Of a stretch of 64,000 nucleotides of DNA, positions 6,177 to 30,665 are shown piece by piece; position 1 is the first letter of the stretch; every line of letters starts with the position of its first letter. Source of the DNA: a virus. Made by a program: the position numbers and the translations under genes. Location of the stretch: positions 1 through 64,000 of the IMG/VR virus record IMGVR_UViG_3300009130_000011; one strand, 5' to 3'. A model generated the notes under the pieces. It saw only the letters and a program-made list of their open reading frames with translations, was not told where the DNA came from and did no database searches.

Positions 6177-8054
6177 TTAACTTACGAACATTGGCGTGAA
6201 TGTAACTTGCGTCTCATCCTTGGGCGCGTGCATCATATCATAGTATACTTTTATCATCCAGTTGCCTAGCACCAAAGCAGAGTAAGAGTCTTTTCTTAGC
6301 TTGTCTGGACCCGTCTGTCTTCTTAGCTCTAGGGGTAAATCAAAAGTTTGAGTTCCTTGAGGGGAAGTGGATATCTGAATTAACGCGCATTCAGATTTGG
6401 CAAGATCTATCATATCACTTTGATGTTCTACAAAGTCTATCATTTTTGCAGATTCAGCCTGTTTATCCACATCAGCATGAACGGAAAATTTTATTTTTTT
6501 AATTGGTATTTTCTTTTTTCTTTGTGCGTGGTAGGAATCGTCTACAGCCCGACCGGCAAACTTAATTCTTTTATGGTCGAAGTTTGCTTGCAGGAGTTCG
6601 TTAGCTCTTCTTATCCAAGGGCTAGATGGTTTTTGTAAATAGCAAATTCTTTTATCGGGTAAATTATATTGTTTTTTTGCTTCTTTTATTACGGAGGGAT
6701 AATCAACGACATTTGTAAAATCTACGTCTTTTATTTGGTCGATTTTAAGTTTATCTTTTTTAAATATAGAGCTTTCGTTTGCAGCGCTAAGAAATTGAAC
6801 GCCTCCATTATAGTCTCCAACAATAGATACTATATTAAAATTAGTAAGTAGATAATGAAAGTATTTTATGTGTTCTCTTAATGTTGTCCCCGGCAAAGCA
6901 TAGCCGTGAACCATTGTGCCTATTTTCTTTTCGTCATCGAGTTTAAATACTTGCATTGCAAAATTATCTGAGCTCTCAGATTCTGCCCAGCTCGGGTCAA
7001 AAGATAAAATGTACTTTGATTCTGGCTCGCCTTTTATTTCTACATGAGTTCCTTGCCCATCTGGTATTGTGCAGGCAGCCATTGTTGATGTTTTAAAATA
7101 TCCAGAGCTGTCATCGGTAAATATTGCGCCAAATTCTCTTTCAAACTGACTTTGACTCATGCTAGATTTTGCTTGGGTAATAAGATTTTGATCGTAAAGC
7201 TGTTTTGGCGCGCAATCATAGCTAAACTTCATTATTGCTCTTCTTGCTGAGGCTGGATCCTGAGTCCCGCTCGAAATTAATTCTTCAAATTGCTCATACA
7301 GCTTATACATATACTCAAATTTGTAACACGCAGAAGACAGCATAATTAATTTATTGTTCGGCCAAATATGCTTGTCTTTTCTTTCCATTTTTCCCTGCAA
7401 TATCAACTCTTCTTCGGCTTGGTCAAGATCTTCTCTCTCGGTAGGGTTTTCTACTACGGAAAGGAAGGGCACAATAACCTCATTATAAATTCTTTCTGGC
7501 ATCAATGCAAACTCATCAATGATAATGCGATGAAATCTAAACCCACGGAGCTTATCTCCATCACCAAGTGGAAGGGCTCTTATTCTCGATGACCCAATCT
7601 CCATCAGCCACTCGTCATTGCTTTTGCTTTTCTTTGTTATGCACTGCGCCAGAAATCCAGCTTCAGGCTTTGCGGCAATGTCCTCGATTTTTTTGAAGAT
7701 CATTTTTGCCTGCCTAAAAGACTTTGATAAAATACCTATCTCGACACCTTGGTTTAAAATAGCATCTAAAAAAGCATATATTCCCGTGGTAAAAGATTTA
7801 GACATGCCTCGAGACCAAACTCCCATAAAGTAATCTGATTCAAACATGCTTTTGATTGCAAGATGCTGAAAAGGAAATAGCTTTACCCCAGAAACCAAGT
7901 CAACCGTAAAAGTCATATTGCTCCTCAAGAATTTGTAAAGCGCTATCTTGGCCTCATTCTCATCTAAATACCCTTCGAGCTCCATAAGCTCTTTATTTAA
8001 CTGCTCCGAGCCTTTCGTTACTGGAGTAGGATTGCCTCCCTCTTCCCAAGTCAT
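6177..8054 (-). CDS. terL: Terminase large subunit
   Basis: 625 aa. The packaging ATPase has a Walker A-like segment VWSRGMSKSFTT (79-90), a variant P-loop as in many large terminases, and Walker B IIIDEF (177-182). The C-terminal RNase H-like nuclease shows Asp353 in ILSFDPSW, Asp414 in IVGDYNGG and a late acidic site near DSYSALVL (about residue 600). It pumps and cuts concatemeric DNA at the portal. The ATG overlaps the stop of the ERCC4 nuclease gene by 4 bp (ATGA), implying coupled translation. Confidence 0.93.
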   Translation of the reverse strand: MTWEEGGNPTPVTKGSEQLNKELMELEGYLDENEAKIALYKFLRSNMTFTVDLVSGVKLFPFQHLAIKSMFESDYFMGVWSRGMSKSFTTGIYAFLDAILNQGVEIGILSKSFRQAKMIFKKIEDIAAKPEAGFLAQCITKKSKSNDEWLMEIGSSRIRALPLGDGDKLRGFRFHRIIIDEFALMPERIYNEVIVPFLSVVENPTEREDLDQAEEELILQGKMERKDKHIWPNNKLIMLSSACYKFEYMYKLYEQFEELISSGTQDPASARRAIMKFSYDCAPKQLYDQNLITQAKSSMSQSQFEREFGAIFTDDSSGYFKTSTMAACTIPDGQGTHVEIKGEPESKYILSFDPSWAESESSDNFAMQVFKLDDEKKIGTMVHGYALPGTTLREHIKYFHYLLTNFNIVSIVGDYNGGVQFLSAANESSIFKKDKLKIDQIKDVDFTNVVDYPSVIKEAKKQYNLPDKRICYLQKPSSPWIRRANELLQANFDHKRIKFAGRAVDDSYHAQRKKKIPIKKIKFSVHADVDKQAESAKMIDFVEHQSDMIDLAKSECALIQISTSPQGTQTFDLPLELRRQTGPDKLRKDSYSALVLGNWMIKVYYDMMHAPKDETQVTFTPMFVS

Positions 8055-12571: not shown

Positions 12572-13678
12572 ATGAGCAACTCTATTCCCGAAATTCATGG
12601 ATCAGTAATATTGATCGGCAACGGACCATCTTCTGCGATGTTTGAGCTTGGAGATCAAATAGATCAATTTGACGAAGTTATTAGATTTAACAGATTTAAA
12701 ATAAATGGCTTTGAGAAAAATCTTGGAACAAAAGTTACATTCTGGGCGACCTTCGGAAGGGGAGAAAGACCTCAAGAAACAGATCCGCCAAAAAAGGTAA
12801 TATTAACTCATGAGGGCGCACGAATAAAAGATATCGAAAATCATGATGTTTTTAGGATTCCATATCATTACCATCAAGAAAAAAGAAAAATTATTCAAGA
12901 TATTGTAAAATCAAAAGGAAGAAATGAAGTGCCAATCTTACCTTCAAGTGGATTTCTTACCACATGTTGGTTGCTGGAAAAGGTTGGAGTTGAACAAGTT
13001 ACGCTGTTAGGTTTTGATCACTTTTCTAAAGAACAAAGCTCGCAACATCATTATTGGTTAAAACAATCATTTGGCAAACCTCAAGAGCACGACGGAGAAG
13101 TAGAGCATCTGCTTCTTTCTGAGTTTGGATCTAGAGTTATGTACTTATCAGGAGAAGACAAAAATGAAAAACAAAAATATGAAGGACTTTATTCTGATCC
13201 AAAAACAAAAAATAGATATGGCCGGACAAATCACGGCAAACATGCAATTCCTTACGTCCTCGAGTCTGGATGCAAATCTTTACTCGATGTAGGTTGCGGA
13301 CATAATAACTTTGTAAATAACTTAAAAATACAATCCCCCGAAATTAAAGGTGTTGGCGTCGACTTTGCTGGTGAATGGGCTGATATTACATGTTGCGCTA
13401 CAAAAATGCCTTTTGTGGACAAAGAATTTGATATGCTTACTGCTTTTGACATGATGGAGCACTTAACTCCAGTTCAAGTTGATTCTGTCTTGAAAGAAAT
13501 GAATAGGGTTTCTAAAAACTTTATATTCTCCATATCTTATGTTCCTAGCGTCTGGAAGTGGCAGGGCAAAACTCTACACCCCACTGTTCGATCCGAAGAG
13601 TGGTGGGTAGATAGAATCAAGAAGCATGGAGGCAAAAATATAATAAAAAAGAGAAACTATATAACAGGAAATTGGTGA
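12572..13678 (+). CDS. GT29-like glycosyltransferase fused to methyltransferase
   Basis: 368 aa, the only plus-strand gene in the late block. The N-terminal half resembles family GT29 (sialyltransferase-type): VILIGNGPSSAMFELG (11-26), then VIRFNRFKI and a later LGFDHF segment. The C-terminal half (from about residue 228) is a class I SAM-dependent methyltransferase: motif I LLDVGCGHNNF (about 237-247) and FDMLTAFDMMEHL (about 286-298), the Methyltransf_11 pattern. The fused enzyme could add and methylate a sugar on virion or host surface glycans. It starts 73 bp from the divergent membrane-protein gene, with AT-rich sequence and no clear SD. Opposite orientation and self-contained fusion suggest a cargo insertion. 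Confidence 0.75.
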   Translation: MSNSIPEIHGSVILIGNGPSSAMFELGDQIDQFDEVIRFNRFKINGFEKNLGTKVTFWATFGRGERPQETDPPKKVILTHEGARIKDIENHDVFRIPYHYHQEKRKIIQDIVKSKGRNEVPILPSSGFLTTCWLLEKVGVEQVTLLGFDHFSKEQSSQHHYWLKQSFGKPQEHDGEVEHLLLSEFGSRVMYLSGEDKNEKQKYEGLYSDPKTKNRYGRTNHGKHAIPYVLESGCKSLLDVGCGHNNFVNNLKIQSPEIKGVGVDFAGEWADITCCATKMPFVDKEFDMLTAFDMMEHLTPVQVDSVLKEMNRVSKNFIFSISYVPSVWKWQGKTLHPTVRSEEWWVDRIKKHGGKNIIKKRNYITGNW

Positions 13679-14993: not shown

Positions 14994-15028
14994 TTGACTT
15001 TTAACCTCAACCGTGCTACTTTATACAT
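14994..15028 (+). promoter_or_regulatory. Leaderless promoter
   Basis: TTGACT, 17-bp spacer, TACTTT, then ATACAT and the ATG at 15029. The predicted +1 is the A of the start codon. Confidence 0.75.
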
Positions 15029-15214
15029 ATGAATAACAAAAACAAATTCCAAAAGGGCGATGTCCTTCTCTCACGGGACGGCAAAGTCTTCCAATTCATC
15101 CAAGCCACCAAGCATGATACGCTTGGCACTATCGCCATGGTTCGCCCATACCGCACCAATCGCAAGGTTGGCATCCGTTTTCAGGATGTAAAACTTCATC
15201 CCATTTTTAACTAA
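15029..15214 (+). CDS. Small basic protein, unknown
   Basis: 61 aa, basic, with beta-rich character (GDVLLSRDGKVFQFIQ) suggesting a small SH3-like barrel. The leaderless promoter fixes the ATG. The stop lies 4 bp before the next start, so the two genes form one unit. No family recognised. Confidence 0.75.
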   Translation: MNNKNKFQKGDVLLSRDGKVFQFIQATKHDTLGTIAMVRPYRTNRKVGIRFQDVKLHPIFN

Positions 15215-15218
15215 TACT

Positions 15219-15527
15219 ATGAGAAAAGTAACTGAACAAATCAAGCGTGCCTTTGAGCAAGGCACATCCTTAAAAGTCGGCAACACCGAGACAGACGGCA
15301 ACACCGTTTGGCTACATGGCAACGCCATTGTCAAGCGAGATCCTGACGGGCTTGTTCGTTGGAGCTTGGCGGGTTGGAATACGCCCACCACACGCGAACG
15401 CGTCAACGGCATAGTGAACGCGGGCGTTCACCAAGTCGCTTTTGAGCCTGTACTAAACGGGCAAGTCATTAACTCATCTGATTGGTTCGCAAGCAACACA
15501 AAGTTGCCCAATCCTCTTGTGTTCTAA
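15219..15527 (+). CDS. Small protein, unknown
   Basis: 102 aa, mixed alpha/beta with a central NGxx-turn and WxxxGW segment (RWSLAGWNTPTTRERVNG) reminiscent of small phage proteins that mark repeated codes in cyanophage-like genomes. Cotranscribed with 15029-15214. The first palindromic repeat copy lies 30 bp downstream. Function unknown. Confidence 0.75.
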   Translation: MRKVTEQIKRAFEQGTSLKVGNTETDGNTVWLHGNAIVKRDPDGLVRWSLAGWNTPTTRERVNGIVNAGVHQVAFEPVLNGQVINSSDWFASNTKLPNPLVF

Positions 15528-15556
15528 GTTGGCACGACATCTGAACGGCCCTTTCA

Positions 15557-15624
15557 TAAGTCGTTGACTATCAGCCGGTTAGCCGGCGCAGGGCGGCGTA
15601 AGTCCTTCATTGCCAATGACTTAC
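15557..15624. repeat. Tripartite palindromic repeat, copy 1
   Basis: Layout: hairpin AAGTCGTTGA...(imperfect partner), GC core ending GGGCGGCG, then AAGTCCTTCA...CAATGACTTA. It is preceded by a TTGGCACG...TGAACGGCC leader also found before copies 3 and 5. Confidence 0.8.
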
Positions 15625-15660
15625 AACATACAAAAAAACGAAAAAAAAATAACTTTTTTC

Positions 15661-15695
15661 TTGCAATTCCACGAAAAATTCTTTAAGTTTATAGT
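15661..15695 (+). promoter_or_regulatory. Leaderless promoter
   Basis: TTGCAA, 17-bp spacer, TAAGTT, 6-nt TATAGT, then ATG at 15696. Confidence 0.7.
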
Positions 15696-15893
15696 ATGTT
15701 AAACAAGAAAATACAAGTAAGAATCCAAGAGTGGTCAACTCATTGGGCAGTTAAAATCTTTGACACAGGAACGGACTACCCTCGTGTTCGGACTGCGTCA
15801 AGCCTTTCCCACCTTCGCACCATAAAGCAAGAGGAAAAGCTTAACTCTCCACGCTTTCAAGTTGTAATGCAACGCAGGCATTTTAATGCTTGA
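15696..15893 (+). CDS. Small basic protein, unknown
   Basis: 65 aa, strongly basic, with WSTHWAVKIFDTG and a C-terminal RFQVVMQRRHF beta strand. Start set by the promoter. The TTGACT box of the next gene overlaps its last codon. No family recognised. Confidence 0.72.
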   Translation: MLNKKIQVRIQEWSTHWAVKIFDTGTDYPRVRTASSLSHLRTIKQEEKLNSPRFQVVMQRRHFNA

Positions 15894-15924
15894 CTTTTAT
15901 AAAAAAATCCTTTAGTTTATACTT
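15890..15924 (+). promoter_or_regulatory. Leaderless promoter
   Basis: TTGACT, 17-bp spacer, TAGTTT, 6-nt ATACTT, then ATG at 15925. The -35 box overlaps the upstream stop codon. Confidence 0.75.
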
Positions 15925-16179
15925 ATGAATTACTCAAACAGAAATGTCCCAACTCGGAGAGTCGAGTTTCAGAATGTAACGATGGAGCTTACCAAAAGAT
16001 TCCAAGATGACCCTAGCGTGGTCAAGACCCAACGCTTGCGGTTTTCTGCTGACCTAGACCAAGAGCTAGACAATGCCTTCCTAAAGTCTCACGCAGAGAG
16101 TGTTTTCAAGTTTTGGGACATCCTAGATGTCGAGCTTGTCCACTCCTTCGTTGACTCAACCGATCAATACATATACTAA
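15925..16179 (+). CDS. Small acidic protein, unknown
   Basis: 84 aa. Basic N-terminus, then an acidic alpha-helical region (DLDQELDNAFLKSHAESVF). Its TAA ends 1 bp before the ATG of the next gene, so the pair are probably coupled. No family recognised. Confidence 0.72.
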   Translation: MNYSNRNVPTRRVEFQNVTMELTKRFQDDPSVVKTQRLRFSADLDQELDNAFLKSHAESVFKFWDILDVELVHSFVDSTDQYIY

Positions 16180-16180
16180 G

Positions 16181-16357
16181 ATGATAACAATAAAACAAAA
16201 CCCTAACTTCACCAAGTTCTTCCAAGTCTTTGCCTTTGGGCAGTACATCGACGAGGTCGAGCGTCGCAGTAAAGCCTTGCGTATAGCTACCAAGCTCGCC
16301 AAGCAACACAAGCAAGACTTTATAAATGTTGACGGCTTGATGCAAGAAGTGTCCTAA
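16181..16357 (+). CDS. FQVFAFG-family small protein, copy A
   Basis: 58 aa, starting MITIKQNPNF with FFQVFAFGQYIDEV and a basic helix (RSKALRIATKLAKQHK). It is a clear paralogue of 21163-21348 on the other strand (MITIKK...QVFAFGNLIDEV...KALRLAKTIAKQ). The shared start shows that the longer open frame is wrong. The TAA stop is the first three bases of palindromic repeat copy 2. Function unknown. Confidence 0.78.
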   Translation: MITIKQNPNFTKFFQVFAFGQYIDEVERRSKALRIATKLAKQHKQDFINVDGLMQEVS

Positions 16358-16422
16358 GTCGTTGATAATCAGGGCCTTAGGCCGCCCTGCGCCGGCTAAC
16401 CGGCTGATAATCAAGGACTTAC
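16355..16422. repeat. Tripartite palindromic repeat, copy 2
   Basis: AAGTCGTTGATAATCAGGG, core CCGCCCTGCGCCGG, then GATAATCAAGGACTTAC. It begins with the stop codon of the preceding gene. The shared leader (GTTGGCACG on the minus strand) lies on its right side, so this copy is inverted relative to copies 1, 3 and 5. Confidence 0.8.
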
Positions 16423-16531
16423 GAAACCGGCGTTCACATAGCGTGCCAACTTAATAGCTTGCGGCAAGTATAAGCCCGGGTGTAATAAGCTATAAGCTAA
16501 GCTAAAAAGAAGCTAATAGTAAAAAAAAATC

Positions 16532-16566
16532 TTGTAAATATGCGTTTTATGTGCTACCTTATAGGT
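16532..16566 (+). promoter_or_regulatory. Leaderless promoter
   Basis: TTGTAA, 17-bp spacer, TACCTT, 6-nt ATAGGT, then ATG at 16567. Confidence 0.7.
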
Positions 16567-16758
16567 ATGAATGATAAAGATAAGAAAGTAAACGGCTTCA
16601 TCGCCAAAGTTAACATCGTCGACCGCAAGTCGGGCGACATCATCGCACGGAATCAAATCCTCAAGTGTGAGCATCACACCACCATTGATGCCTTGAATCG
16701 TGACCTCGCCAAGTTTGGCTTGCCACGCAAGTTTGAGTTTGTCGATTGGATTGCATAA
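16567..16758 (+). CDS. Small basic protein, unknown
   Basis: 63 aa, starting MNDKDKKVNGF. The promoter fixes this ATG; an in-frame ATG 27 bp upstream lies inside the spacer and cannot be used by this transcript. Sequence suggests a small beta-rich fold followed by a helix. Function unknown. Confidence 0.75.
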   Translation: MNDKDKKVNGFIAKVNIVDRKSGDIIARNQILKCEHHTTIDALNRDLAKFGLPRKFEFVDWIA

Positions 16759-16765
16759 AAAAAGC

Positions 16766-16800
16766 TTGCAATAAAACTTTAAATCCTTAGTCTTATACAT
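16766..16800 (+). promoter_or_regulatory. Leaderless promoter
   Basis: TTGCAA, 17-bp spacer, AGTCTT, 6-nt ATACAT, then ATG at 16801. Confidence 0.65.
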
Positions 16801-17034
16801 ATGAATATAATTGAACAAACCCGCAAAGAATGCAACCGCGAGCTTGACCTCGGTCTTGCTCTTTCCAAAGCTGAGGGAAATCTGAATTTCCTCGCAGGAC
16901 AATCCCACGAGAATAAGCTCGGACTAAATGCCATAACTCAAGACATGGCAATCCTTGACGCCCTTAATGCGGTACAAATCGCCCGCAAAGCTTTTCAAGA
17001 AATACTTTCAGAAAAGCGAAAAAAAAGCTTGTAA
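16801..17034 (+). CDS. Small helical protein, unknown
   Basis: 77 aa, predicted all-helical with heptad-like Leu/Ala spacing (LALSKAEGNLNFLAGQ, MAILDALNAVQIARKAFQE). The stop overlaps the -35 box of the next promoter. Function unknown. Confidence 0.72.
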   Translation: MNIIEQTRKECNRELDLGLALSKAEGNLNFLAGQSHENKLGLNAITQDMAILDALNAVQIARKAFQEILSEKRKKSL

Positions 17035-17063
17035 TAAACTAAAAAATCCTTACTCTTATACTT
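17029..17063 (+). promoter_or_regulatory. Leaderless promoter
   Basis: TTGTAA, 17-bp spacer, ACTCTT, 6-nt ATACTT, then ATG at 17064. Confidence 0.65.
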
Positions 17064-17264
17064 ATGGAAAATACTGATTCACTCGACCGCACCGCCCACG
17101 CCTTCGGCATGACCGATCTCGAATTTGAGGAACGCTCTCAAGTCGAGGCTGAGATTGCCGCCCAACAAGTCATCCGTAGATGGCAAGAAGAGGAGCAGAT
17201 CCTCAGAGAGTCCTTTGAAGCTCTCAGCCTCTTTGACGAAGAGGAAAACCCCCATCTCTTCTGA
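17064..17264 (+). CDS. RTAHAFGMTD-family small protein, copy A
   Basis: 66 aa, acidic. Its N-terminus (DSLDRTAHAFGMTDLEFEE) is almost identical to that of 19849-20073, while the rest differs: here a Gln/Glu-rich helix. The conserved N-terminal module with variable tails suggests a targeting or partner-binding segment. Function unknown. Confidence 0.75.
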   Translation: MENTDSLDRTAHAFGMTDLEFEERSQVEAEIAAQQVIRRWQEEEQILRESFEALSLFDEEENPHLF

Positions 17265-17296
17265 CGGGTTGGCACGCTTCTTGAACGGCCCTTTTA

Positions 17297-17364
17297 TAAG
17301 TCGTTCATAATCAAGGGCTTAGGCCGCCCTGAGCGAGCTAAGTAGCTGATAGCCAAGGACTTAC
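17297..17364. repeat. Tripartite palindromic repeat, copy 3
   Basis: AAGTCGTTCATAATCAAGGGCTTA, core GGCCGCCCTGAGCGAGC, then AAGTAGCTGATAGCCAAGGACTTAC. Preceded by the shared GGCACGCTTCTTGAACGGCC leader. Confidence 0.8.
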
Positions 17365-17389
17365 GACGCAAAAAAAGTTAAAAAAGTTC

Positions 17390-17424
17390 TTGACTTTTCG
17401 GGGTTGCTGTGCTATGTTATAGGT
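17390..17424 (+). promoter_or_regulatory. Leaderless promoter for mini-ORF 1
   Basis: TTGACT, 17-bp spacer, TATGTT, 6-nt ATAGGT, then ATG at 17425. Confidence 0.75.
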
Positions 17425-17448
17425 ATGATTAAGAAAATCCCAAACTAA
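17425..17448 (+). CDS. 7-residue leader peptide 1
   Basis: ATG-to-TAA frame encoding MIKKIPN, directly under a full leaderless promoter. The TAA is followed at once by a structured RNA motif. Two further copies (MKMKIPN, MKMKTPN) lie at 17545 and 17605. Ending in Pro-Asn-stop suggests slow termination, as in attenuator peptides, but no downstream gene is obviously controlled. Confidence 0.5.
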   Translation: MIKKIPN

Positions 17449-17449
17449 G

Positions 17450-17483
17450 AGCCGTAGAATGGCGGGACGTGGCTCCCCGCAGA
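17450..17483 (+). ncRNA. Alternative-pairing RNA motif, copy 1
   Basis: Order of segments: GAGCC, GTAGAAT, GCGGG, ACGT, GGCTC, CCCGC. The first and third pair-partners (GAGCC/GGCTC) and second set (GCGGG/CCCGC) interlock, giving either a pseudoknot or two mutually exclusive hairpins. Copy 2 preserves both pairings with different bases. Confidence 0.55.
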
Positions 17484-17509
17484 TCACCAAAAAAAACTTA
17501 AAATAATCC

Positions 17510-17544
17510 TTGACTTTTAGCCCAAACTCCGTTAACTTATAAGT
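17510..17544 (+). promoter_or_regulatory. Leaderless promoter for mini-ORF 2
   Basis: TTGACT, 17-bp spacer, TAACTT, 6-nt ATAAGT, then ATG at 17545. Confidence 0.75.
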
Positions 17545-17568
17545 ATGAAAATGAAAATCCCCAACTAA
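17545..17568 (+). CDS. 7-residue leader peptide 2
   Basis: Encodes MKMKIPN under its own leaderless promoter. It is the first half of a 60-bp unit repeated in tandem at 17605, in the same frame. Confidence 0.5.
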   Translation: MKMKIPN

Positions 17569-17599
17569 GCGCCGTATAAGTCGGGACGTGGCGCCCCGA
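17569..17599 (+). ncRNA. Alternative-pairing RNA motif, copy 2
   Basis: Segments: GCGCC, GTATAAG, TCGGG, ACGT, GGCGC, CCCGA. Relative to copies 1 and 3, A-T became C-G in the first helix and G-C became T-A in the second: compensatory changes in both helices. Confidence 0.6.
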
Positions 17600-17604
17600 A
17601 GATT

Positions 17605-17628
17605 ATGAAAATGAAAACCCCCAACTAA
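17605..17628 (+). CDS. 7-residue leader peptide 3
   Basis: Encodes MKMKTPN, in frame with and 60 bp after peptide 2. It has no promoter of its own, so it is probably on the same transcript. Confidence 0.45.
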   Translation: MKMKTPN

Positions 17629-17663
17629 GAGCCGTAGAACGGCGGGACGTGGCTCCCCGCAGA
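17629..17663 (+). ncRNA. Alternative-pairing RNA motif, copy 3
   Basis: Segments: GAGCC, GTAGAAC, GCGGG, ACGT, GGCTC, CCCGC, nearly identical to copy 1. A truncated palindromic repeat follows. Confidence 0.55.
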
Positions 17664-17676
17664 GTTTGGTAACCCT

Positions 17677-17737
17677 CTTATAATCAAGGACTTACGCCGC
17701 CCCTGTCCGCGTAAGCGGTTGAATACCAAAGACTTAT
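17677..17737. repeat. Tripartite palindromic repeat, copy 4 (truncated)
   Basis: The left arm is shortened to TTATAATCAAGGACTTAC; the core CGCCGCCCCTGTCCGCG and the right arm ending AAAGACTTAT are kept. Confidence 0.7.
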
Positions 17738-17807
17738 GAAACATAAGTACAGAAATCATGCCAATTCATGCGATAGGATAGTGCAAAAAATTAGTTGAAA
17801 GTTTTTC

Positions 17808-17842
17808 TTGACTTTTGGCGTTTTTTGGGTTATGTTGTAGAC
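17808..17842 (+). promoter_or_regulatory. Leaderless promoter
   Basis: TTGACT, 17-bp spacer, TATGTT, 6-nt GTAGAC, then ATG at 17843. Confidence 0.75.
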
Positions 17843-17938
17843 ATGAAATTAACTGAAAGAGAAAAAATCCTCCTCGCAATCGTCCTTCCTAAAAAGGAAA
17901 AAAAAGCAAAAAAAAGTTTGCAATTCCGCCAAAACTAG
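17843..17938 (+). CDS. 31-residue basic peptide
   Basis: Encodes a Lys-rich peptide (MKLTEREKILLAIVLPKKEK start) with a short hydrophobic stretch ILLAIVL after an acidic turn. Strong promoter and matched start support it despite its size. The -35 box of the next promoter lies inside it. Function unknown. Confidence 0.6.
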   Translation: MKLTEREKILLAIVLPKKEKKAKKSLQFRQN

Positions 17939-17946
17939 TTTAGCTT
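17918..17946 (+). promoter_or_regulatory. Sigma-70-type promoter with 32-nt leader
   Basis: TTGCAA, 17-bp spacer, TAGCTT. Here the ATG (17985) is about 38 nt beyond the -10, so this unit is an exception to the leaderless rule. Confidence 0.65.
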
Positions 17947-17984
17947 ATATACATACAACAAAGATAACCTAACTCAAAAAAATT

Positions 17985-18173
17985 ATGACCAAGTCCGAAA
18001 TGCTCAAAGAAATCTCCATCCTCCACGAAACGCTGAAAGATTGCGTTCTCACCATCGCTGACCGCGTTGCGATCCGCAACGAGATCGGTGACCTGCAGGA
18101 CAGGGTCGCCCTCCTCGACTTCCAAAACGAAGGCGAGGACTTCGACTTCGGTCATCACTCCGAATGGGAGTAA
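17985..18173 (+). CDS. Small acidic helical protein, unknown
   Basis: 62 aa, helical with a coiled-coil-like pattern (MLKEISILHETLKDCV, RNEIGDLQDRVALLDF) and a very acidic C-terminus. No SD is evident in its A-rich leader. Function unknown. Confidence 0.72.
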   Translation: MTKSEMLKEISILHETLKDCVLTIADRVAIRNEIGDLQDRVALLDFQNEGEDFDFGHHSEWE

Positions 18174-18188
18174 AAAGCAAAAAAAAGT

Positions 18189-18223
18189 TTGCAATCACCT
18201 AAAAAATCGTTTAAATTATACTC
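18189..18223 (+). promoter_or_regulatory. Leaderless promoter
   Basis: TTGCAA, 17-bp spacer, TAAATT, 6-nt ATACTC, then ATG at 18224. Confidence 0.72.
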
Positions 18224-18445
18224 ATGAATAAAGCAGAATTAAATCAAAAATTCGAGCTTCTCAATCGAGAAGTAAATGCCCTTTGGGATTCTTCAAAGTC
18301 TTTGCAAGATCAATCTGCCGAGTACAGCCAAGCTTGGCAAGCTCGTTTCGAGGTTTCTCGTGAACTTCGCAACTTTCGGGAGCTTGGCGGTTCTCGCTCT
18401 CGTTGCCATGATATGGCTTTTAAGATCCGCGAGCAAAACGCTTAA
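18224..18445 (+). CDS. Small helical protein, unknown
   Basis: 73 aa, helical, with an N-terminal amphipathic segment (LNQKFELLNREVNALWDSS) and an Arg-rich middle (EVSRELRNFRELGGSRSR). Followed 26 bp later by a gene with a classical SD. Function unknown. Confidence 0.72.
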   Translation: MNKAELNQKFELLNREVNALWDSSKSLQDQSAEYSQAWQARFEVSRELRNFRELGGSRSRCHDMAFKIREQNA

Positions 18446-18471
18446 AGTCTAACCTCAACAGAAAGGAAAAT

Positions 18472-18624
18472 ATGTTCATCCTCAAATCTATTCTCAACCA
18501 AGCGGGCGCCGTTTGGAAAGTTGAAAGCATCGCAATGCGCGAGCGTGACGCAAGGCGTCTCCTCCGTAGGCGTCAAGCACAAAATGACGGCAGTCGCCGT
18601 TACGGGCTTTTCCCTGCCAAGTAA
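18472..18624 (+). CDS. 50-residue Arg-rich protein
   Basis: Encodes MFILKSILNQAGAVWKVES followed by an Arg-rich stretch (RERDARRLLRRRQAQNDGSRR). A GAAAGGAAAA ribosome-binding site sits 5-14 nt upstream, so it is translated from the mRNA of the preceding gene rather than leaderless. Function unknown; nucleic-acid binding is plausible. Confidence 0.6.
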   Translation: MFILKSILNQAGAVWKVESIAMRERDARRLLRRRQAQNDGSRRYGLFPAK

Positions 18625-18652
18625 TTGGCACGCTTCTTGAACGGCTGTTTCA

Positions 18653-18720
18653 TAAGTCGTTGACTGTCAGGCGGTTAGGCCGACAGGGGCGGCGTAAGTC
18701 ATTGATAGTGTGACACTTAC
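18653..18720. repeat. Tripartite palindromic repeat, copy 5
   Basis: AAGTCGTTGACTGTCAGGCGG, core CGACAGGGGCGGCG, then AAGTCATTGATAGTGTGACACTTAC. It has the shared GGCACGCTTCTTGAACGGC leader. Confidence 0.78.
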
Positions 18721-18763
18721 GACACGCAAGAGAATAGTGTAAGAAAATAGTTGAAAGTTTTTC

Positions 18764-18798
18764 TTGACTTTTCGCATTTTTTGGCTTATGTTATAGGC
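18764..18798 (+). promoter_or_regulatory. Leaderless promoter
   Basis: TTGACT, 17-bp spacer, TATGTT, 6-nt ATAGGC, then ATG at 18799. Confidence 0.75.
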
Positions 18799-18906
18799 AT
18801 GAAAGTTAAAGTGAGAAAGACAATCCTTATGCCCAAAAGCATTCCGCACAAGCGGAAAAACAAAGTCTTGCCACGCAAGGCAAAGCACAAGGGAATTGTG
18901 CAATAA
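18799..18906 (+). CDS. 35-residue highly basic peptide, copy A
   Basis: Starts MKVKVRKTILMPKSIPHKRK and has 15 or so Lys/Arg. It is similar to 25918-26037 on the minus strand (MKAREIKIRKPILFTKARPF...), also leaderless. The charge suggests RNA or DNA binding. Function unknown. Confidence 0.62.
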   Translation: MKVKVRKTILMPKSIPHKRKNKVLPRKAKHKGIVQ

Positions 18907-18924
18907 AATAGTTGAACATTTTTC

Positions 18925-18959
18925 TTGCAATTTTACAAAAAATCCTTTATATTCTTAAT
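18925..18959 (+). promoter_or_regulatory. Leaderless promoter
   Basis: TTGCAA, 17-bp spacer, TATATT, 6-nt CTTAAT, then ATG at 18960. Confidence 0.7.
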
Positions 18960-19103
18960 ATGAAAACAAAAGAACAACTTCTTAAAGACCTTGCCTTTTG
19001 GCAGGATAAGGTCAATCGTTCACGCAAGGAGTCTCTCCGCTCCATCAGAGTTCTGCACCTTCAGCATGTGCAGGATGAACTCAAGAAACTTCAAGAAAGT
19101 TAA
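18960..19103 (+). CDS. 47-residue helical protein
   Basis: Starts MKTKEQLLKDLAFWQDKVNR; fully helical and amphipathic. The longer in-frame opening at 18912 overlaps the promoter and is rejected. Function unknown. Confidence 0.65.
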   Translation: MKTKEQLLKDLAFWQDKVNRSRKESLRSIRVLHLQHVQDELKKLQES

Positions 19104-19112
19104 GTTTCGGGG

Positions 19113-19149
19113 TTGACTTTATCGCTACAAACTGACAAAATATAATCTT
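19113..19149 (+). promoter_or_regulatory. Promoter with near-leaderless start
   Basis: TTGACT, 17-bp spacer, CAAAAT, then 8 nt (ATAATCTT) before the ATG at 19150. Confidence 0.6.
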
Positions 19150-19341
19150 ATGAAAATCACTAACGGAAAACTATACTTCTCAAAATCTAACGCTTGTGTT
19201 GTCCGAGTCTTGCGGGCAGACCAAACCCAAAAGGTTGCAACGCTGAAGCATCACGCTTCTGATATGGTGGAATCCGAGGTCTTGTTTAAGGACTTGACTC
19301 CCGCCACTTCCGAGCAAGTAAAATCCTACTTGGGCAAATAA
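19150..19341 (+). CDS. Small basic protein, unknown
   Basis: 63 aa, beta-rich N-terminus (ITNGKLYFSKSNACVVRVLR) then a polar helix. It has the general look of the 15029-15214 protein, a compact barrel that starts with a turn and two strands, but no real alignment. The next mini-ORF starts 1 bp after its stop. Confidence 0.72.
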   Translation: MKITNGKLYFSKSNACVVRVLRADQTQKVATLKHHASDMVESEVLFKDLTPATSEQVKSYLGK

Positions 19342-19342
19342 G

Positions 19343-19414
19343 ATGATTGAAATGATTCTTATAATCGCCTTCGCTCTAGTAATCCCAACGCTTGCAAAAG
19401 CGAACGCACAATGA
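19343..19414 (+). CDS. 23-residue hydrophobic peptide
   Basis: Encodes MIEMILIIAFALVIPTLAKA plus NAQ: a single membrane helix or a bare signal-peptide-like sequence with an AKA motif. The stop overlaps the next ATG (ATGA), so all three genes are coupled. One of several one-helix micro-proteins in this window. Confidence 0.55.
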   Translation: MIEMILIIAFALVIPTLAKANAQ

Positions 19415-19671
19415 GCGAAGCAGAAGTTGCACGATACAACGAAACACTTGCAGATCTCTCTCAAAGCATTGATCTGGGTTGGAAAAAGTTTTGGCAAGAG
19501 CGAGGAATAAACGCGGCTCTTGCTTGTAAGGATATAAATACGGGCGGACCTTGGTACTCCCGAGGCTATGGCGAGCAGGACGCCACAGGCGTTTTCGCCC
19601 ACATGCTAGAACCCGCCGAGCTTATCACCCGAGCAGTCACCCGCAAGAAAACCTTAAAGCAGTTTCATTAA
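19411..19671 (+). CDS. Small protein, unknown
   Basis: 86 aa, mixed helix with SQSIDLGWKKFWQERGINAA and an aromatic-glycine middle (GGPWYSRGYGEQ). Its TAA stop coincides with the first bases of repeat copy 6. Function unknown. Confidence 0.72.
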   Translation: MSEAEVARYNETLADLSQSIDLGWKKFWQERGINAALACKDINTGGPWYSRGYGEQDATGVFAHMLEPAELITRAVTRKKTLKQFH

Positions 19672-19735
19672 TCCTTGATAATCAAGGGTTTACGCCGCCC
19701 TGAGCGACATAAGTCGTTGAACACCAAGACCTTAC
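19669..19735. repeat. Tripartite palindromic repeat, copy 6
   Basis: TAATCCTTGATAATCAAGGGTTTA, core CGCCGCCCTGAGCGACA, then AAGTCGTTGAACACCAAGACCTTAC. Begins with the preceding gene's stop codon. Confidence 0.8.
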
Positions 19736-19813
19736 GGAAACATAGTTAAAATCAAAATTCTGCCCGGGGTAGTTATTTGGTATTGTATTTGTTAAAATTT
19801 GTTTAAAAATCTC
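19736..19813. other. Intergenic spacer
   Basis: AT-rich with a CCCGGG patch; no gene seen. It joins repeat copy 6 to the next promoter. Confidence 0.5.
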
Positions 19814-19848
19814 TTGACTTTTCCCCGTTTCCCCCTTATGTTGTTCTT
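19814..19848 (+). promoter_or_regulatory. Leaderless promoter
   Basis: TTGACT, 17-bp spacer, TATGTT, 6-nt GTTCTT, then ATG at 19849. Confidence 0.75.
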
Positions 19849-20073
19849 ATGATTAACGAAAACGATTCCCTCGCCCGCACCGCCCACGCCTTCGGCATGA
19901 CTGATGTCGAATTTACCGCCCGCCACGGGTTCGCCCCCGTGGACGATCTCCCGCTCCCGCCTCCTCCTGCGGGCTTCACGGTCTCGCCCAGCGGAGCCAT
20001 CCGCGAGGCTAGCCCCGAGGAACTCAGCGACTGGGTCGCTGAGGATATCCTCAACGGAGAGTTTGACGACTAG
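19849..20073 (+). CDS. RTAHAFGMTD-family small protein, copy B
   Basis: 74 aa, acidic. N-terminus DSLARTAHAFGMTDVEF matches 17064-17264. The tail is Pro-rich (LPLPPPPAGFTVSP) and ends in an acidic helix. The codon use is much more GC-rich than its neighbours. Last gene of the plus-strand block. Function unknown. Confidence 0.75.
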   Translation: MINENDSLARTAHAFGMTDVEFTARHGFAPVDDLPLPPPPAGFTVSPSGAIREASPEELSDWVAEDILNGEFDD

Positions 20074-20077
20074 GCCC

Positions 20078-20145
20078 TAAGTCGTTGACAATCAAAGGGT
20101 TAGCCCGCCCTGAGCGGCGTAAGTAGCTAATGATCAACGACTTAC
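20078..20145. repeat. Tripartite palindromic repeat, copy 7
   Basis: AAGTCGTTGACAATCAAAGGGTTA, core GCCCGCCCTGAGCGGCG, then AAGTAGCTAATGATCAACGACTTAC. Confidence 0.8.
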
Positions 20146-20201
20146 AAAAAGTATTGTTCTGTCGCCCGCCCGCCCGCAAAATTGTTATTTAGCTATTTGC
20201 G

Positions 20202-21383: not shown

Positions 21384-21452
21384 CAAAAAAAAATGTAAAA
21401 TAATCACTTTATCCGCCCGCTTATATCCTTCATAAGTTTCTCTAATAATACG

Positions 21453-21519
21453 TAAGTCTTTGTCTTTCAATGACTTGCGCCGCCCAGAGCGCCCTAAGTG
21501 CCTGAGTATCAATGACTTA
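21453..21519. repeat. Tripartite palindromic repeat, copy 8
   Basis: AAGTCTTTGTCTTTCAATGACTTG, core GCCGCCCAGAGCGCC, then AAGTGCCTGAGTATCAATGACTTA. Its right end supplies the stop codon of 21517-21681. Confidence 0.8.
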
Positions 21520-21681
21520 GTAGCCTAACCAAACCAAAACCTCTTGTGCTTCATACTCTTCCCTGTCTCCCAAGTCATCAAAGAATTGCTCGATATCTTC
21601 GCAATGATGCCTTGCCAATTCAAGCAAAGCTCTTTCTCTCGTTATAGTTAAACCTTCGGCTGAATCGTAATAGTCCATCAT
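21517..21681 (-). CDS. 54-residue acidic protein
   Basis: Starts MMDYYDSAEGLTITRERALL and is helical and acidic. It overlaps the end of the upstream GP88-like gene by 4 bp (coupled) and ends inside repeat copy 8. Function unknown. Confidence 0.62.
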   Translation of the reverse strand: MMDYYDSAEGLTITRERALLELARHHCEDIEQFFDDLGDREEYEAQEVLVWLGY

Positions 21682-30276: not shown

Positions 30277-30665
30277 TCGGAGGAGTGGGAAAGTGTTCCA
30301 CGCTTTTATGTAGTTACGGGAAAGGCGATGAAATAACCAGACTACGAAATCCGCTACAATACCTTTTACATACCCCATCAACGAAAGGAGGTCGATTTGG
30401 TCGTTTCAGTCCAAATGCAACCTATACTATGAGAATAAATAGATGTGGGGGAGGACTACTGAATACCTCCAACTTTTCGGCGTGAACATCAGTTCAATGG
30501 TGTACCTACTTCGAACTACAGACTAGACTTGGTATTTGTCTTTTGGCTCATCCGATTGGACTCTGCCATCCCCACCACAGGGGTCTGCATACCTTAACCC
30601 GCTCACGACAGGTTTATTCGAGTCACCCACAGGAAGGATTATAAGCCCTTCCAAAGTGTTTAAAA
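30277..30665 (-). ncRNA. Large structured non-coding RNA candidate
   Basis: About 390 nt with no credible coding frame, GC content above the flanks and a strong terminator at its minus-strand end. Stems on the minus strand, 5' to 3': GGAAGG/CCTTCC, AACC/GGTT, a closing GACTC/GAGTC pair, CCCC/GGGG, TGAAC/GTTCA with TGAT loop, GGAGG/CCTCC, ATTTGG/CCAAAT, GTGG/CCAC. Elements of RNase P RNA, tmRNA, SRP RNA or group I introns were not found. Large ornate phage RNAs such as GOLLD and ROOL occupy similar places, but identity is unproven. A promoter was not clearly located; the AT-rich stretch at 30661-30767 is the likely place. Confidence 0.6.

Follow-up and report, generated by a model that had tools for sequence, protein, structure and literature searches.

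An RNA element in which a conserved fold is anchored at the stop codon of a very small gene, with real covariation in its helices, appears to be an undescribed structured RNA. Three copies lie in the window (the 64,000-nucleotide stretch of DNA that we analyzed), which is part of a 102,754-base virus record carrying TerL, PhoH, rIIA and DNA-ligase genes. Nucleotide comparison establishes a promoter with ATG at the predicted +1, a conserved mini-ORF, selected helices of which the first runs from the first base after UAA, tandem copies and, in some relatives, use as a leader. We tentatively read the whole as a phage early RNA module, in which a minigene, mostly of 7 codons and often leaderless, has its stop codon abutting a pseudoknot-like fold and would control ribosome flow; we regard this as a real possibility, though short of probable.

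Organization of the three units

Each window unit (n = 3; 59-60 nt) comprises a 7-codon ORF, a UAA stop codon and two interlocking helices. Helix 1 is named S1 (strands S1a and S1b) and helix 2 is named S2 (S2a and S2b), L1, L2 and L3 being the loops; the strand order is S1a-L1-S2a-L2-S1b-S2b.

17390..17418, + strand: unit 1 promoter (TTGACT, 17 nt, TATGTT), followed by exactly 6 nt and then ATG
17425..17448, + strand: unit 1 mini-ORF, MIKKIPN*, predicted leaderless
17449..17480, + strand: unit 1 double-helix element (S1a 17449-17454, L1 17455-17461, S2a 17462-17466, L2 17467-17469, S1b 17470-17475, S2b 17476-17480)
17510..17538, + strand: promoter common to units 2 and 3 (TTGACT, 17 nt, TAACTT), followed by 6 nt and then ATG
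17545..17568, + strand: unit 2 mini-ORF, MKMKIPN*, predicted leaderless
17569..17599, + strand: unit 2 double-helix element (S1a 17569-17574, L1 17575-17580, S2a 17581-17585, L2 17586-17588, S1b 17589-17594, S2b 17595-17599)
17605..17628, + strand: unit 3 mini-ORF, MKMKTPN*, without its own promoter, 36 nt past the unit 2 stop codon
17629..17660, + strand: unit 3 double-helix element (S1a 17629-17634, L1 17635-17641, S2a 17642-17646, L2 17647-17649, S1b 17650-17655, S2b 17656-17660)

An earlier note on this DNA had described three mini-ORFs (M..PN stop), each with a two-helix element, and we recovered all three at 17425-17663. The compensatory changes that it had seen in copy 2 are likewise there, GAGCC/GGCTC becoming GCGCC/GGCGC and GCGGG/CCCGC becoming TCGGG/CCCGA. 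The six segments into which it had divided the element are present, but its 5-bp GAGCC helix can be read as 6 pairs: the G that opens the linker and the T that closes "ACGT" form a terminal G-U pair, found in 14 of the 16 units that we compared, and the middle loop shrinks to 3 nt. Units 2 and 3 are, as it had said, in tandem, 60 nt apart and in frame in the window; the frame is not conserved, the tandem spacing in the relative L111 being 59 nt compared to these 60 nt.

The core GGGACGTGGCNCCCCG has exactly three exact matches in the whole record, which are the three units; in shuffled sequence, 0.08 matches would be expected with up to three mismatches. A third alternative hairpin, GCCGTAGAACGGC, can be drawn in units 1 and 3 and in a shorter form in L111; it is absent from the other units and so is not conserved in the family. 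The slippery heptamer CCCAAAC occurs, among the window units, in unit 1 only. Frameshifting or stop readthrough was considered and rejected, there being no conserved extension frame, a second in-frame stop inside L1 in units 1 and 3 and in the relative L016, and a tandem spacing of either 59 or 60 nt. A CRISPR repeat or anti-CRISPR RNA was rejected by eye, since the whole unit is repeated, without spacers.

Early promoters and surroundings

A + strand array of small early-type genes occupies about 14.4-20.1 kb of the window. Eleven promoters in this array (window 14994-19848) have a TTG-type -35, 17 nt, a TANNTT-like -10 and exactly 6 nt to ATG; when -10-to-ATG distances from 0 to 12 were scanned in the array, none besides 6 was seen more than once. 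Because ATG stands exactly 6 nt past the -10, transcription should start at the A of ATG, and we predict leaderless mRNAs. Two of these promoter cassettes, those of unit 1 (17425) and unit 2 (17545), encode just 7 codons, and both units are predicted to begin exactly at the expected transcription start and hence to be leaderless. A Shine-Dalgarno-like stretch was found in just 4 of 26 long genes. Window 14994-19848 would as a whole be an early region of predicted leaderless mRNAs. On the + strand, neither an intrinsic terminator nor a U-tract follows either helix of any window unit.

Repeated elements of about 80-100 nt lie between the cassettes (window 16327-16425, 17269-17367, 17665-17745, 18625-18723, 19640-19738, 20050-20148 and 21440-21520). 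They look like two tandem hairpins (e.g. TAAGTCGTTGATAATCAAGGGCTTAGGCCGCCCTGAGCG...), flank the unit cassette on both sides and are also present in L004, L016, L054 and others, and are reminiscent of the promoter-early-stem-loop cassettes of T-even phages. The sequence TTGGCACG(N)CTTGAACGGC, repeated ahead of hairpin elements (window 17269-17290, 18625-18646 and 15530-15548), resembles a sigma-54 promoter core with its -12 part off consensus. Elsewhere, a manA RNA (RF01745) was found at window 30440-30652 (- strand) and at L111 24-234, and window 12572-13678 (+ strand) holds a lone + strand gene amid - strand genes, whose putative product was judged by eye to be glycosyltransferase-like in its N-terminal half and methyltransferase-like in its C-terminal half.

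Distribution in related viruses

Scans of viral contigs yielded 13 further units in six other virus records (two each in L111, L113 and L114, three each in L016/L112 and L115, and one in L119), which makes 16 units in seven virus records with the window, and in addition a distant relative, L200. Units b of L113 and L114 (CGCCCG-ACTGAC-GAGG-AGA-TGGGCG-CCTC) retain S1, S2, an L2 of 3 and an L3 of 0 in the same layout, with almost no element letters in common with the window. In L200, a distant freshwater contig represented by one sequence, the fold stands behind a 3-codon ORF, MIF* (AUG-AUU-UUC), which has a purine-rich, Shine-Dalgarno-like stretch, AGAGGAAG, upstream of it.

The module is wholly missing from L004, a near relative whose PhoH is 95% identical, and it is therefore dispensable. 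L004 (reverse strand, joint near locus position 7309) shows a clean deletion relative to window 17203-17850, which removes all three units and joins two small early genes, the window 17064 gene and the 17841 gene.

By inspection, units take a leader position in L016 (twice), L115 and L119, preceding a small ORF without a visible promoter of its own; these small ORFs are of two unrelated kinds and belong to no confident family. A new promoter comes after the last unit in the window, L111, L113 and L114, and no ORF stands directly behind these terminal units.

Wider searches added no members. A core-pattern scan of viral contigs gave 27 further matches, none with the fold, which we take as chance; a mini-ORF pattern scan of bacterial genomes gave 43 matches, none of them followed by the fold. 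BLAST against named phages and plasmids returned no homologous unit, 50 virus records scanned with a covariance model yielded no members beyond the known ones (weak matches with E of 0.003-0.5 being taken as chance), and no family among the Rfam covariance models matches the element.

Sequence covariation and constant features

Pairs were counted on a hand alignment of the 16 units, which leans towards structure; MAFFT misplaces L113b, L114b and helix 2 of L016/L115, so that an automatic count understates the pairing. On the hand alignment, the S1 pairs other than the terminal G-U are intact in all 16 units, and compensatory changes are present at 4 of the 6 S1 pairs (GC/CG; AT/CG/GC; GC/CG/AT; CG/TA). 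The absence of such changes in homologues is what the earlier note had named as evidence against its proposal. S2 co-varies as well (GCGGG/CCCGC, TCGGG/CCCGA, GAGG/CCTC and TGGG/CCCA), with mismatches at the outer pair only, in two degenerate units. When the 38 nt after the stop were shuffled, such a fold arose in 0.04-0.24% of trials for each of six distinct versions. We conclude from the letters that both helices are under selection.

The position of the fold is nearly constant: in 14 of the 16 units, the base that directly follows the stop is the first base of S1. In the two exceptions, the third unit of L115 and the second unit of L016, UAA has become CAA and the reading frame meets another stop, TAG in one unit and TGA in the other, three codons later, where S1a ends. 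L2 measures 3 nt and L3 measures 0 or 1 nt; L1 has 6-7 nt when L3 is 0 and 3-4 nt when L3 is 1. The loop letters are not constant in folds that are otherwise intact, L1 reading GTAGAATG, GACTGAC or GAAA and L2 reading ACG, AGA or CAG. As for the ORF, most have 7 codons, with 8 in MRMRKALN and 10 in MKTKxPNQGL; K-I/T-P-N is conserved among the peptides, one unit ends in His (L016 5333) and two read on to QGL*. Some of the codon differences between the ORFs are synonymous (ATC/ATT, CCA/CCC and AAC/AAT).

Feasibility of a simultaneous pseudoknot

The geometry was modelled with ideal A-form coordinates from fibre values; for a crossing of the deep groove, the model returns the known minimum of 10 A at 6-7 bp. 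A classical H-type pseudoknot is sterically excluded, because 0-1 nt would need to span about 26-30 A. The earlier note had called a simple pseudoknot strained and two mutually exclusive hairpins likely; the strain is borne out for the classical type, but another stacking makes a simultaneous pseudoknot feasible. With S1b and S2b continuous, L2 crosses the deep groove of S1 at 10.4 A in the A-form model, which is the best value for a helix of 6 bp; the 6-7 nt of L1 then bridge about 31 A. Such a stack is feasible in the model for units of the window type, and L016-type units would be tight in it unless S2 is 3 bp.

Discussion

In the mechanism that we propose, a ribosome loaded on the mini-ORF would have to open helix 1 to put UAA in its A site, which would leave helix 2 at about its leading edge. 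The usual ribosome footprint reaches about +15 from the P-site, so a ribosome whose A site holds UAA would cover S1a and part of L1, with S2 lying at about the edge. The fold would open partly for termination and could close behind it, and after release of the peptide its re-formation would block movement of the ribosome in the 3' direction. Held on a stretch about one footprint long, the ribosome might re-read the same tiny ORF (reiterative translation) or be let through at a set rate, to reach the next unit or the gene downstream; in this way the module would meter early-gene translation or, early in infection, hold host ribosomes. With its position fixed at the stop, the fold would favour staying over moving on, which would explain the fixed distance from stop to helix, the free loop letters, the short ORFs with varied peptides, the tandem copies and the leader use. 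A ribosome can translate an ORF of 2-8 codons several times over without releasing the mRNA, and mccA, with 7 codons, goes through ~71 rounds of translation in vitro without mRNA dissociation (PMC6495379).

That L200 has the fold behind a different, 3-codon peptide is easier to reconcile with ribosome handling than with a specific peptide product. The terminal units of the window, L111, L113 and L114 have no ORF right behind them, and gating of a downstream gene can therefore be part of the explanation at most. Conservation of K-I/T-P-N in the peptides exceeds what a pure ribosome trap would need and counts against the ribosome-control reading. It is also conceivable, though we consider it doubtful, that the element represents a new class of RNA structure, an unusual pseudoknot with a 6-bp helix 1 crossed by a 3-nt loop and with no third loop, at the stop of a leaderless minigene, which would form a one-ribosome cage to hold or meter host ribosomes.

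Among the alternatives, the fold might be a 3'-side stability element that, in early cassettes lacking terminators, shields a short transcript or a processed 3' end from exonucleases and has no special role for the ribosome. Its compactness, the free loop sequences, the lack of an intrinsic terminator after the window units and its retention in units with no gene behind would suit this. We find it unlikely, however, as the start of the fold coincides with the stop codon instead of varying in distance from it, and as the fold of the L016, L115 and L119 units sits within a leader and not at a 3' end. A decoy or binding site, with the fold bound in trans by the ribosome or by an RNA-binding protein of phage or host and the mini-ORF being incidental, could account for the constant G-U pair and geometry, the several copies per genome and the strong early promoters; the T4 gene 32 pseudoknot is the comparison case. 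This is unlikely given that the mini-ORF and the stop position are conserved, with synonymous changes, and that the loop letters, often what proteins read in RNA, are not. The heptapeptide could instead be the product, a microcin-C-like precursor or other tiny early effector whose synthesis the fold boosts, since most units, including all three in the window, have 7 codons and a terminal Asn. Natural McC precursors have 7, rarely 8, residues with a universal N-terminal Met and C-terminal Asn, and a hairpin terminator follows mccA (PMC6495379). No ThiF/MccB-type protein (PF00899) was found, however, in the window's record or in seven relatives, some of them fragments, and the His end, the two QGL* extensions and MIF* of L200 depart from the pattern, which leaves such a product quite improbable.

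A role as toxic minigenes of the lambda bar type, in which drop-off of short peptidyl-tRNA starves the host of particular tRNAs, is very unlikely. The very short ORFs, above all the AUG-AUU-UUC of L200, agree with it, but most units have 7-8 codons and no obvious rare-codon pattern, and a conserved fold after the stop is not known to be part of the bar design. Lambda bar minigenes reportedly inhibit protein synthesis via peptidyl-tRNA accumulation (EMBO J 17:3758, listed in PMC8012679). Leader-peptide attenuation of transcription, raised in the earlier note, would have the position of the ribosome on the mini-ORF choose the helices that set termination before early genes. A ribosome that terminates on the mini-ORF would sit on S1a with S2 left free, and the leader position in L016, L115 and L119 supports some tie to leader-ORF translation. 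The attenuation itself is highly improbable in its classical form, since the window units have no U-tract terminator after either helix; moreover, the mini-ORF has no run of a regulatory codon and a new promoter often comes after the module. Small pseudoknot aptamers exist, and the same note had thought of a ligand-sensing motif. This suggestion is not sustained: L1 and L2 letters change freely in otherwise intact folds, which makes a ligand aptamer unlikely, and with no Rfam match besides, we give a ligand-binding riboswitch hardly any weight.

If the proposed control of ribosomes is true, these units would offer a small, testable case in which a phage controls how ribosomes terminate, re-initiate or are retained, and a pseudoknot with a geometry unlike the classical type. 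Seven-codon phage genes, which gene finders normally do not call, can be under selection.

Relation to known systems

In the control of RepZ/RepA in plasmids, translation of a short ORF reportedly governs formation of a pseudoknot, which sets translation of the next gene. The phage units would resemble this coupling of short-ORF translation to a pseudoknot, the plasmids concerned being of the IncI and IncL/M groups (J Biol Chem 273:11815, listed in PMC10724649). These plasmids reportedly use a long-range pseudoknot and an antisense RNA, whereas the phage units have a local 31-32-nt fold, often with no gene behind. Microcin C mccA (PMC6495379) shares with most of the units a 7-codon ORF, an Asn-stop end and an RNA structure just behind. 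Unlike mccA, the phage records have no MccB/ThiF protein, the phage fold is not a terminator, the units come in tandem, the leaderless ones lack a Shine-Dalgarno sequence and one relative has a 3-codon ORF. Like the phage units, the cis-regulating minigenes of axe-txe mg2 (PMC8708949) and the lambda bar minigenes are very short ORFs carried by a leader or by phage RNA; they work through translation, as the phage units may, but they are two-codon ORFs and no conserved pseudoknot is described at their stop. The timP mRNA (PMC11228461), an enterobacterial toxin mRNA with an sRNA partner, differs in having its pseudoknot upstream of the start codon, and has mutually exclusive folds, one of them a pseudoknot that controls translation, as the phage units may also have.
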